This document shows positions 708-3,980 of a DNA stretch of 7,065 nucleotides, piece after piece (the first letter of the stretch is position 1; each line of letters starts with the position of its first letter). Made by a program: the position numbers and the translations under genes. The notes beneath the pieces are model-generated. The model ran no database searches. It was not told the origin of the DNA and saw nothing but the letters and a program-made list of their open reading frames with translations. Source of the DNA: Rickettsiales bacterium (lineage in GTDB: Bacteria; Pseudomonadota; Alphaproteobacteria; Rickettsiales; 21-14-0-20-44-7); the NCBI GenBank assembly GCA_023301015.1, contig JALZVI010000341.1, positions 1-7,065 of the forward strand, written 5' to 3'.

Positions 708-1723
708 GTTTAAGCGAAGATAAAATTGTAGAAATTGACCGCGCTGCTTTTGAGTTGCGCCGTGGACGTGCTGTGCGTATTGGCGCTGCTTTCTTTATGC
801 ATCCTGAATTTGTGCATAATGGTAATTGGGCAGAAATTTCACAGCAAAACCCTAAATTGATTGTAACGGCAAAGCGTGCGGCTGGTCTGTTTGCAGCTGA
901 GTTCGAGTGCGCGCAGGAATTACCGCTGGCGACTGAAAACCCAGCAACAATTGCGCTGCTTGCTAGTGGCTATGAGGCGTTGGAGCTTAAGAAAAGTGCG
1001 GATGTGGCGGGTGCAGAGATTGATGCGGCGCTGGCACTTGCGCGAATTTCGCAGCTTTTACCAACGGTGGTTCGTCTAGATGCGGCGGCGAATGCTGTGG
1101 CAGTTTCGGCTGAGGATATTTTGGGCTACAAGAAATCTCTGAATGAGAATTTGAAGATGGTGGCGCAAACACCGCTGAAGCTGAAGAATGCACGTAAGGC
1201 AAAAATTCTGGCATTCCGTCCACCAAATGGAGATTCTGAGCATCTGGCAATTGTGATTGGTGATGTTGGCGAAGAGCCACTAATCCGCCTGCATTCTTCA
1301 TGCTATACGGGTGATTTGCTAGGCAGTTTGGCGTGTGATTGCGGTGACCAGCTGAGTGAGTGCATCAAGCTTATGGACAATGCTGGCGGTGGAGTAATTG
1401 TGTATTTACTGCAAGAGGGTCGAGGAATTGGGCTGATTAACAAGCTGCATGCCTATGCTCTGCAAGATGGCGGGTTGGATACTGTTGAGGCGAATGAATT
1501 TTTAGGCTTTGACGACGAAGAGCGCGAATTTGAACCGGCTGTGAAAATTTTGGAAGAGCTGGGTGTTTCAAAGGCAAAGTTGGTTTCCAATAATCCCCGC
1601 AAAGCCAAGGATTTGCGGGCGCTAGGAATTGATGTGACAGAAATGGTGCCGCTGCTGGTAACGCATGAGCACAACCATGATTATGTGCAGACAAAGGGCA
1701 AGAAATCTGGACATATTGTTTAG
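704..1723 (+). CDS. ribA: GTP cyclohydrolase II with long N-terminal extension (riboflavin synthesis)
   Basis: It catalyses the first committed step of riboflavin synthesis, converting GTP to 2,5-diamino-6-ribosylamino-4(3H)-pyrimidinone 5'-phosphate, formate and pyrophosphate. Residues about 150-339 align with E. coli RibA. The zinc ligands Cys200, Cys211 and Cys213 (CYTG...CDCG) are present, as are QEGRGIGLINK, Tyr251 (E. coli Tyr105), Arg274 in DEER (E. coli Arg128), and the SNNPRK and GHIV tail. The protein has 339 residues against about 196 in E. coli. The first ~145 residues resemble the outline of a RibB-type domain (ELRRGRAV near the start, VSAEDILGYKK at its end) but lack the acidic DDEDREN catalytic motif, so this half is probably not an active DHBP synthase. 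The start at 704 overlaps the upstream stop and has no clear Shine-Dalgarno sequence, which fits translational coupling to the HAD gene. Confidence 0.95.
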   Translation: MSLSEDKIVEIDRAAFELRRGRAVRIGAAFFMHPEFVHNGNWAEISQQNPKLIVTAKRAAGLFAAEFECAQELPLATENPATIALLASGYEALELKKSADVAGAEIDAALALARISQLLPTVVRLDAAANAVAVSAEDILGYKKSLNENLKMVAQTPLKLKNARKAKILAFRPPNGDSEHLAIVIGDVGEEPLIRLHSSCYTGDLLGSLACDCGDQLSECIKLMDNAGGGVIVYLLQEGRGIGLINKLHAYALQDGGLDTVEANEFLGFDDEEREFEPAVKILEELGVSKAKLVSNNPRKAKDLRALGIDVTEMVPLLVTHEHNHDYVQTKGKKSGHIV

Positions 1724-1781: not shown

Positions 1782-2819
1782 ATGAATCCTAATGATGAAA
1801 AGAAAATTGTAAATGGCTGGGGCTTTGCTGCTATCCAGTCAATGAAAGAGCATGGCATTTTGCCCATGCCTGAGACTTATTCTGTGTGGTTTGAATATCA
1901 CCGCAAGTCATATCCGCGGATGAATTCTAAAATTGATAAAATCATTGAGGCAGGATCTGTTTTTGACCGCGATGTTTCTCGTGAGCTCTATAACCAGTTC
2001 ATCTTAAACCAAGTGAGCGCAGAGTCAGTTGCTTCTGCCAGTGATAAAACGCAAAAGATTATGGAATCGGTTCTTGGTCTAATTGATGGCACTGTTTCGG
2101 GTGCAGCTGGTTATAATGAAGATTTGGGTGATTTCGCAGCTGATCTTGAAGAGATGGGTGCTATGGATGCGGGGAACATTAATGAGATGATTTCTAGCAT
2201 TGTGACTAAGGCAAAAAGCTTGAAGAGAGAAGGTGAAAACTTGAATAGCAAGTTGGTTGAGTCGCAGAAAGAAGTTGGTGATTTGAAGGTTTCTCTGGAA
2301 GAGGTAAGTCTGCAAGTGAGCTTGGACGCGCTAACTGGGATTGCGAATCGTAAGGCCTTCGATGAGAATTTGGAAGCGTCTATAGAAGAAGCAAAAGCAG
2401 AGAAGAAAAGCCTTTGCTTGCTTATGCTTGATGTTGACCACTTCAAGAAGTTCAATGATACATACGGGCATCTGATGGGCGACCAAGTTTTGCGTATTGT
2501 TGCTAGTGCAATGAAAAGCGTAATTCGTGGGAAGGATATGTGCGCGCGTTATGGTGGTGAAGAATTCTGTGTAATTCTGCCCGATACGCCGCTGCAAGGT
2601 GGTAAGATTGTGGCCGAGAACATCCGCAAAGCAATCGCAACTCGTGAATTGAAGCGCAAAGATACTGGCGAAAGCTATGGTAAGGTTACGGTTTCGACTG
2701 GTGTTTCCATATATAACCCGCTCTATGACAACTCCGAAAGCATGATTGAACGTGCGGATAAGGGGCTTTATTTGTCAAAAGAGAATGGCCGCAATTGCGT
2801 CAGCGTGGTTGAAGGATAA
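1782..2819 (+). CDS. Diguanylate cyclase (GGDEF domain), soluble
   Basis: It makes cyclic di-GMP from two GTP. The C-terminal GGDEF domain spans about residues 178-345. It begins with DALTGIANR (182-190), has the metal-binding Asp217 in DVDHFKKFND, and has a canonical GGEEF signature at 258-262. The RxxD inhibitory site (Arg249-Asp252) is correctly placed five residues before the signature, so product feedback inhibition is expected. Residues about 1-140 are a mostly helical region without membrane segments or a signal peptide and without a sensor fold I recognise. A heptad-like stretch at about 142-180 probably forms the coiled-coil linker that drives dimerisation. The protein is therefore likely cytosolic and controlled through its N-terminal region. 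A perfect CtrA-type box stands just upstream. All catalytic residues are intact; the signal and the regulated process are unknown. Confidence 0.95.
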   Translation: MNPNDEKKIVNGWGFAAIQSMKEHGILPMPETYSVWFEYHRKSYPRMNSKIDKIIEAGSVFDRDVSRELYNQFILNQVSAESVASASDKTQKIMESVLGLIDGTVSGAAGYNEDLGDFAADLEEMGAMDAGNINEMISSIVTKAKSLKREGENLNSKLVESQKEVGDLKVSLEEVSLQVSLDALTGIANRKAFDENLEASIEEAKAEKKSLCLLMLDVDHFKKFNDTYGHLMGDQVLRIVASAMKSVIRGKDMCARYGGEEFCVILPDTPLQGGKIVAENIRKAIATRELKRKDTGESYGKVTVSTGVSIYNPLYDNSESMIERADKGLYLSKENGRNCVSVVEG

Positions 2820-2852: not shown

Positions 2853-3563
2853 GTGAGTATGTTGAACTCACTAAAACCAAATTTTGTTGAAAAGCTTTTT
2901 GAGAAAACATTTGTTCCCGCAATAATAATATTCTTCGTCTGCCTTTTTGCAGGCCTGCTTTTTGGTTTGGTTTTCTCGCCTGAAGACTACCAGCAAGGCT
3001 CAACCGTGCGGATTATGTATGTGCATGTGCCGTCTGCATGGCTGGCAATGGCGGTTTATGCAATGATGGCCTCGTTTAGTTTTGGATATTTGGTGTGGCG
3101 CAATCCGTTGGCATATTATATCGCAAGAGCAGCCGCTCCAATTGGTGCAATGTTTGCGCTTGTGTGCCTTGCAACTGGCTCTGTCTGGGGCTATCCGACA
3201 TGGGGCACATGGTGGGTTTGGGACGCGCGCCTGACTTCGATGTTGATATTGTTTTTCCTATATCTAGGATATATGGCGCTCGATGACGCATTTGTGGATG
3301 CTGAGCGCGAGGCGAAATCATCCTCAATTTTGGCCGTAATTGGTGCGATTAACCTGCCAATTATCAAATATTCCGTAGAATGGTGGAACACTCTGCATCA
3401 ACCCGCCAGCATTTTGCGCATGGACGGCCCGAGCATCGACGGATCAATGCTGCTGCCGCTGGGCTTGATGGCGGTTGCTTGGCTAGCCTTCACATATGTC
3501 CTAATCGGCCTGCGCGTGCGCAATACTCTGATGCGCAAGAAATTGGATTACATGAGGAGCTAG
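2853..3563 (+). CDS. ccmC: Haem exporter/handling protein CcmC (cytochrome c maturation)
   Basis: This is the System I cytochrome c maturation protein that, with CcmD and CcmABE, presents haem to the periplasmic chaperone CcmE. The 236-residue protein has about six membrane segments (roughly 21-41, 60-82, 95-112, 127-143, 157-173 and 201-220). The haem-handling WWVWDARLTS motif is at 120-129, preceded by WGYPTWGT. The two conserved periplasmic haem-ligand histidines are present as His58 (YVHVPSAW) and His182 (WWNTLHQP). Length and motifs match the family. The GTG start at 2853 is preferred over the ATG at 2859 because AGGG at 2839-2842 lies 10 bases before the GTG but 16 before the ATG. The gene follows the GGDEF gene by 33 bp and may share its transcript. 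No ccmD, ccmB or ccmE lies next to it; a convergent repeat region follows directly. Confidence 0.96.
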   Translation: MSMLNSLKPNFVEKLFEKTFVPAIIIFFVCLFAGLLFGLVFSPEDYQQGSTVRIMYVHVPSAWLAMAVYAMMASFSFGYLVWRNPLAYYIARAAAPIGAMFALVCLATGSVWGYPTWGTWWVWDARLTSMLILFFLYLGYMALDDAFVDAEREAKSSSILAVIGAINLPIIKYSVEWWNTLHQPASILRMDGPSIDGSMLLPLGLMAVAWLAFTYVLIGLRVRNTLMRKKLDYMRS

Positions 3564-3565
3564 TA

Positions 3566-3725
3566 GTTTTTTAATTTCCTCCCCGCTGCGCCTTCGGCTT
3601 GCAGACTGAAACGCGCTCATGGCTGCTGGTTCGGAATGAATATGTATACGATCACGAGGCCTCGCCGAAGTGCAAGGCCATTGAGGCCGACCGGCCTCAG
3701 CGGCCGAAGAGCGTAATTAAAAAAC
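3566..3725. repeat. GC-rich palindromic (MITE/RPE-like) element with 11-bp terminal inverted repeats
   Basis: GTTTTTTAATT at 3566-3576 is the exact reverse complement of AATTAAAAAAC at 3715-3725. Just inside, CTTCGGC (3592-3598) can pair with GCCGAAG (3703-3709), and CGCT (3584-3587) with AGCG (3710-3713), so the whole block can fold back on itself. Internal palindromes include CGAGGCCTCG (3655-3664) and TGAGGCCG/CGGCCTCA (3682-3699). The core 3578-3714 is about 62% GC by hand count, richer than its AT-rich neighbours. It fills the gap between the ccmC stop and the stop of a convergent gene. No transposase is encoded, and no clear target-site duplication is visible. Non-autonomous mobile repeat is my preferred reading; a structured RNA or an elaborate bidirectional terminator are alternatives. 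No second copy lies in this window, so repetitiveness is untested. Confidence 0.55.
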
Positions 3726-3746
3726 CACCTATCACGTAGTGATAGG
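3719..3746 (-). terminator. Intrinsic terminator of the minus-strand small-gene operon
   Basis: On the minus strand, CCTATCAC-TAC-GTGATAGG (3746 to 3728) forms an 8-bp stem with a 3-base loop. It is followed by TGG and six T (3724-3719). The TGA stop of the 82-residue gene (3734-3732) lies inside the 3' arm of the stem. The T-run belongs to the terminal inverted repeat of the 3566-3725 element. Confidence 0.75.
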
Positions 3747-3980
3747 ATTCGGGCTTTCGCTGAATAGCTTATCGAAGAATAGATAATAAGCCTTTGCGAT
3801 GCGGGCGATAAAATCTTCTGTCCATAGATTCATGTCATAGCCGCGATTGATTACGTCTGAGAAAATTTCCAAGCGGATTTTTTCTGTAATTTCTGTTTCT
3901 GGTAAATCCTTAGCGCGGTCTAGGAAAAACCATCCCGGCGCCTTGTTTTGTTCCATCATTGTTTGAAGATATCCTGCCAT
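3732..3980 (-). CDS. Hypothetical protein, 82 residues, second gene of small operon
   Basis: I do not recognise this protein. It is charged, has no signal peptide and no clear membrane segment, and is probably largely helical. The N-terminal part contains APGWFFLDRAKDLPE. A central stretch is rich in Glu, Ile and Lys, and an aromatic cluster (AKAYYLFFDKLF, about 63-74) precedes a short SPNPITT tail. It is believable as a gene because a strong GGGAGG Shine-Dalgarno sequence precedes it by 9 bases. The upstream gene stops only 2 bases before its ATG, and an intrinsic terminator overlaps its stop codon. These signs indicate co-expression with the 110-residue protein and perhaps a shared complex. 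Function is unknown. Confidence 0.75.
   Translation of the reverse strand: MAGYLQTMMEQNKAPGWFFLDRAKDLPETEITEKIRLEIFSDVINRGYDMNLWTEDFIARIAKAYYLFFDKLFSESPNPITT

Follow-up and report, generated by a model that had tools for sequence, protein, structure and literature searches.

The best-known cases of palindromic repeats inserted in frame into genes come from Rickettsia, where the Rickettsia palindromic elements (RPEs) include such copies. In Enterobacteria, the ERIC sequences are structured palindromic repeats of about 127 bp which occur class-wide, as diverged copies, in intergenic positions. RPEs are described as palindromic repeats of 105–146 bp with predicted stem-loops (PMC2229807). A further type, the CGTC-type REP, is reported to be common among Alphaproteobacteria, with Micavibrio aeruginosavorus and Rickettsia among its hosts, and to be characterized by stems of 8–9 bp, loops of 4–5 and a CCA-like tail (PMC3733652).

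The window analyzed here is a stretch of 7,065 bp from a Rickettsiales bacterium (contig JALZVI010000341.1), in which a palindromic block lies between ccmC and a convergent frame (Table 1). Carrying no gene, the element is probably one of the scattered copies of a non-coding palindromic repeat that occurs in Alphaproteobacteria, mostly uncultured ones, and behaves like RPEs and like ERIC or REP sequences. Direct support comes from the membership of positions 3656–3725 in the family, its dispersal in relatives, a covarying hairpin A, copies in relatives that lie in frame in genes, the position near gene ends and a break in gene order. The repeat is best read as new as a family and ordinary as a kind, the nearest kinds (RPE, ERIC) having been compared with it by description. 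The earlier note had named the block as its strongest candidate for something undescribed; this would hold for the family, of which no description was found in the literature searched (few subscription journals covered), and does not hold for the kind, which is already known in the form of RPE- and ERIC-like repeats. With ERIC sequences, likewise compared by description, the repeat shares its structured, diverged and intergenic palindromes, whereas it belongs to another bacterial class.

Table 1. Features of the element and its neighbors (window positions).
Feature	Position	Strand	Remark
ccmC, cytochrome c assembly protein	2853..3563	+	Upstream neighbor; Pfam PF01578, E 7.6e-40
Whole element	3563..3728	.	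Bounded by 14-bp imperfect AT-rich end repeats
Element end sequence			TTTTAATTGCGCTC
Left AT-rich end repeat	3563..3576	+	Starts on the final base of the ccmC stop codon
5' hairpin, CTGCGCC-TTCG-GC-TTGCAG	3586..3604	+	Hairpin at the same place in long G432 copies; homology suggestive
3' module with proven relatives elsewhere	3656..3725	+	DNA match, held-out profile, model R1
Hairpin A, GGCC-ATTGA-GGCC	3676..3688	+	RTTGA loop conserved, stem covaries
Hairpin B, CGGCC-TCAGC-GGCCG	3692..3706	+	3 of 5 pairs changed on both sides across copies
GAGCG, then AT-rich end	3709..3713	+	Invariant in 13 aligned copies
Right AT-rich end repeat	3715..3728	-	Doubles as T-run of the convergent gene's terminator-like site
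Terminator-like hairpin, CCTATCAC-TAC-GTGATAGG	3728..3746	-	Spans the end of the convergent frame
82-aa frame, convergent neighbor	3732..3980	-	Narrow, uncharacterized protein family

The exact 11-bp terminal inverted repeats claimed in the earlier note are present, with GTTTTTTAATT at positions 3566–3576 and its exact reverse complement at positions 3715–3725, and the two arms can be extended to 14 bp with one mismatch (3563–3576 and 3715–3728). The placement of the block between two stop codons was also confirmed, that of ccmC at 3561–3563 and that of the 82-aa frame from position 3732. The inner 138 bp reach 61.6% G+C, the joint highest value among the 138-bp stretches of the window (47.0% G+C as a whole); the interior is thus GC-rich, as had been claimed, but the flanks are not uniformly AT-rich (50.8% and 44.6% over 500 bp on either side). 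Taken alone, the 11-bp inverted repeat is at chance level: at least one exact pair of this length, up to 200 bp apart, appeared in 60 of 200 dinucleotide-shuffled windows, and the end repeats alone therefore prove nothing. A second exact 11-bp inverted repeat, also at chance level, is located in the ribA-like gene (1182/1290, spanning window positions 1182–1300).

These ends bear on whether the element could be a classical MITE, as had been proposed, in which the AT-rich ends would act as terminal inverted repeats recognized by a transposase encoded elsewhere and insertion would leave a target duplication of CTA (or TA). The 14-bp end repeats with their single mismatch, the AT-rich ends which are also found on the long copies of a related genome, G432, and the CTA that flanks the window copy on both sides are in line with such a design. 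However, the 3-bp CTA match is weak, no duplication was seen by eye in the G432 copies, the short copies of another relative, G411, have no clear left AT end, and 11-bp end repeats arise by chance at the frequency given above. The one transposase family sought, Y1_Tnp, to which the tyrosine (Y1) transposase linked to GTAG REPs belongs, was present in 2 of 12 genomes and in none of the three richest in the repeat (G411, G432 and G524), which argues against REP-type mobilization, although these genomes may be incomplete. With end repeats at chance level and no convincing target duplication, the element is unlikely to be a MITE.

Among the genomes compared, the nearest by UbiD identity are G411 (79%) and G432 (73%), both of one family, and the stretches examined in G411 have 43% G+C. 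A plain BLAST search of the element, which the earlier note had recommended for related Alphaproteobacteria, gave hits at nine places (E ≤ 0.01), spread over 6 of the 216 genomes searched, all of the same order. The best DNA match lies in G411 (81% over 47 bp, E 5e-6); three matches in G411 and one in G524 correspond to the 3' side of the element (47–56 bp, 77–81%), and G432 has two matches of 22–23 bp. Places in G401, G450 and G551, which lie inside frames of 368–459 codons, look like chance. A pattern consisting of CATTGAGG, a gap and GAGCG gave 19 matches in all four genomes searched, of which 11 were judged to be family copies (four each in G411 and G432, three in G524) and eight to be chance; the reversed pattern, used as a control, gave no match in the same four genomes.

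A covariance model, termed R1, was trained on 13 copies, namely the window copy and 12 from G411, G432 and G524, with none from G506. At E ≤ 0.05, R1 matches 29 of the 216 genomes of the order, many of them with weak matches alone (E 0.001–0.05). It finds at least 18 places in G411, at least 15 in G524, at least 12 in G432 and, outside the training set, at least eight in G506, the counts per genome being lower bounds in the order set, where up to 23 candidates were scored in each genome, and also in the class sample, where the figure was 13. In the class sample, 4 of 385 genomes have matches at E ≤ 0.001 (at least six in G206, at least five in G299 and at least one each in G293 and G347), and the sequences of these four show the same core, with four cores in a row at the G347 locus (L257). 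The window scores 73.9 bits with R1, being itself one of the 13 training rows. Because the window had helped to train the model, a further profile was built without it, and this profile gave 39.0 bits (E 3.5e-12) at 3663–3724, compared with 7.7 bits for the best of 100 shuffled windows. The module at 3656–3725 belongs to a dispersed repeat family. In the relatives it lies at many unrelated places, and neither as a single copy nor beside ccmC alone, and copies within one genome have diverged from each other. The core pattern of the repeat had no match in viral contigs, and the L257 copy had none when compared with plasmids.

The 5' half of the element is less firmly placed. Nine of the 12 G432 copies inspected run about 100 bp further upstream and contain, by eye, at least one extra hairpin, and the layout of the window resembles that of these long copies. 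When compared with a G432 profile, the 5' half (3565–3655) scores 3.6–3.7 bits, slightly more than any of 1000 shuffles (at most 2.9 bits) and less than a chance site at another place in the window (4.7 bits). An end-to-end match of positions 3567–3723 to the long G432 copies reaches 28.8 bits (E 8.6e-10, profile without the window), a score which comes mainly from the 3' module. The 5' half may be homologous to the long copies, for which the resemblance is suggestive; proven homology was rejected on account of the borderline score.

Across the copies, the module retains a constant order of hairpin A, a short spacer, hairpin B, GAGCG and an AT-rich end. As RNA, the block folds better than its shuffles on both strands (z -2.75 and -3.61), and the covarying pairings that were tested are the local hairpins at 3676–3688 and 3692–3706. 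In the alignment of 13 rows, 85.5% of cells are paired, as opposed to 33–47% with slid partners, and double changes occur in five of nine pairs, with 12 such cells compared with 4.1 in shuffles. Hairpin A pairs in 98.1% of cells of this alignment and hairpin B, which is less regular, in 74.1%. Five of six covariation measures lie clearly above both the shuffles and the slid versions, while the number of further pair types (seven) does not exceed the slid control (eight at slide +3). The RTTGA loop was sought in 60 matches of the order (the 52 whose positions were studied and 8 of the remaining 14) and in 11 of the 13 class-sample matches, and was present in 47 of the 60 and 10 of the 11. In the order set, the hairpins with this loop comprise 14 distinct 4-bp stems with 94.6% of positions paired, whereas 2000 re-pairings of the arms averaged 58.9% and never exceeded 82.1%. 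Since related sequences can beat shuffles even without constraint, the variety of stems weighs more here than their number. The check by folding and covariation that had been called for turned out in favor of a covarying stem. Selection on the structure of RNA or DNA could produce such covariation, and so could template switching between the arms, since an arm that is copied from its partner as the DNA replicates can stay complementary to it with no selection involved.

The genomic positions of the copies, judged from simple ORF calls, were studied for 52 of the 66 R1 matches, the 14 omitted being further units of the G524 array and weaker or partial matches. Between called genes lie 41 of the 52 copies (15 between convergent genes, 12 and 8 between tandem genes in the two orientations, 6 between divergent genes); nine overlap called ORFs, which are mostly short and doubtful, and two lie near a contig start with a called gene on one side alone. 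A downstream neighbor on the opposite strand is present at 27 copies; in 18 of these, including the window copy, the 3' end of the model lies within 8 bp of that neighbor's stop codon (a raw count). Modules are also arranged head to tail in arrays, with units of 63–68 bp in G524 (L224, L226) and of 88–153 bp in G347 (L257).

Two copies of the family, with the window copy not among them, lie in frame in conserved protein-coding genes. One is an insert in G411, in a gene resembling cystathionine gamma-synthase, and 19 of the 21 top-ranking relatives in the alignment lack it; among the relatives that do have an insert, that of P0004 is similar and that of P0024 different. The other is found in xseA of G537, where the copy lies on the opposite strand and 14 of the 22 best relatives have a gap; the other eight have shorter or other inserts at a variable loop, with a similar one in P0136. 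Both judgments draw on these 21 and 22 top-ranking sequences among 120 listed relatives. At the same loops, P0024, P0132, P0137 and P0142 carry other inserts, which perhaps stem from other repeat families.

The resemblance to a Rickettsia-type palindromic element, suggested in the earlier note, is well supported as an analogy. Both are palindromic repeats with stem-loops in Alphaproteobacteria, and the family described here is likewise dispersed over many loci per genome, with two copies in frame in genes. It differs from RPEs in its hosts and in having several short local hairpins as opposed to one long one.

A repeat copy also lies directly 3' of rnpB in G524 (L225) and G512 (L234), at about 1000–1100 in these loci, the RNase P match having been computed for G524 on the overlapping L163 and the gene in G512 having been placed by shared flanking sequence. 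The two copies differ in the stem of hairpin A, which is perfect in one and has one mismatch in the other. Near rnpB, L163 of G524 also contains a match to the Rfam whalefall-1 RNA (2222–2276, minus strand, 42.5 bits).

One alternative is that selection maintains the repeat as a functional element of structured RNA (or of single-stranded DNA), which would be bound at its RTTGA hairpin by a protein or RNA partner and work at gene 3' ends. Besides the covariation of the stem and the retention of the loop, points in favor are the copies 3' of rnpB in G524 and G512, whose stems differ, and the same core in G206, G299, G293 and G347 of the wider class sample. On the other hand, tandem arrays and in-frame gene copies are the behavior of a repeat, the copies show no clear preference of orientation (12 tandem in one direction and 8 in the other), and copying between stem arms in replication could maintain complementarity without selection. 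A search of the window with 4227 Rfam families gave none at E ≤ 1, and across 20 copy-bearing loci nothing reached the cut-off on a copy; a weak match to MIR7510 overlaps two L257 copies (28.6 bits, with a cut-off of 93; E 0.075). A structured RNA is a possible but quite unlikely principal reading.

A further alternative is a one-off pair of convergent terminators, in which the palindrome and its T-runs would mark no more than the points where transcripts of ccmC and of the 82-aa frame end. A terminator-like site does lie on the minus strand (3746–3728), and hairpins followed by T-rich sequence accompany the 3' side of 13 of the 52 copies, the window copy among them, as opposed to 4.6 expected from simple base shuffles, some of the 13 being hairpins of a neighboring copy (e.g., L204, L242). 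Yet the site in the window lies mostly outside the block, its single occurrence compares with 0.9 expected in shuffles, and the plus strand has none. The module recurs beside other genes, and terminators peculiar to this locus are disfavored as a highly improbable explanation.

The window copy, read as a member of a dispersed repeat, lies where the gene order breaks. G411 shares the order HAD-ribA-GGDEF-ccmC with the window at 55–61% identity, and a primase-like frame (named from its translation) comes next after its ccmC. In a word search covering 5.8 billion proteins, the 82-aa protein had just two relatives (P0001 and P0002, 91% and 83%); diverged homologs are located near ubiD in G411 and G432, and in G411 the homolog is on another contig, where it adjoins a convergent acetolactate-synthase-like frame (again named from its translation). 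R1 found no element up to E 1 in those stretches. The gene order of the window was also absent from the best 80 ccmC loci, in which ccmC reached at most 62% identity and the GGDEF protein was the only other one matched (E ≤ 1e-4). The break is consistent with recombination between dispersed copies, as a single case, and since G411 is distant (55–61% beside ccmC), breaks in gene order are expected anyway.

Compared with the REP types, the repeat shares the character of short dispersed palindromes, but its common module has a 4–5 bp stem and an RTTGA loop. A CGTC, TGTC or CCTC tag beside an 8–9 bp stem with a loop of 4–5 was found in 1 of 52 copies, L203 of G411, in which TGTC, an 8-bp stem, a 4-nt loop and CCA adjoin the module; the window copy has none. 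When loops of 6–10 were allowed, TGTC with a 9-bp stem appeared in five of 52 copies, compared with 0.55 expected, and all five (L210, L211, L213, L232 and L233) belong to G506 and have loops of 9–10. The CGTC-type REP and the repeat may thus be linked in some genomes. A GTAG or GTGG tag beside stems of 7–13 bp with loops of 3–12 was present in 1 of 52 copies, compared with 1.85 expected, and again not in the window copy. The GTAG at window position 3563 was not seen at the corresponding position of the G432 copies.

An integron attC site was also considered. The consensus boxes of such sites are RYYYAAC and GTTRRRY; both were present in just 2 of the 52 copies and not in the window, and this assignment was rejected.

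The copies are GC-rich cassettes with AT-rich ends and a constant run of local hairpins, and they have spread to many unrelated sites, which may have happened either passively or by means of some enzyme. They would persist mainly in places where they cause little damage, such as gene 3' ends, and occasionally in frame in a gene loop. At gene ends, the hairpins would be transcribed into the 3' ends of mRNAs and could contribute to the termination or protection of transcripts; in the window, the AT end of the copy supplies the T-run for the terminator-like site of the convergent gene. A more ambitious and distinctly improbable proposal is a class-wide alphaproteobacterial hairpin element whose conserved RTTGA loop would be recognized by a partner; the element would be able to move and would also have a function at the 3' ends of mRNAs, with its copies serving in addition as sites of chromosome rearrangement.

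A similar repeat in uncultured, small-genome Alphaproteobacteria would untie such repeats from Rickettsia, and its covarying stems provide a family in which to ask whether selection or template switching preserves hairpins. For annotators, the repeats call for caution, as they create spurious short ORFs. Finally, the G397 copies (L241, L247) adjoin hairpins of the form CGCCTAACG..CGTTAGGCG, which perhaps represent a second repeat or terminators.
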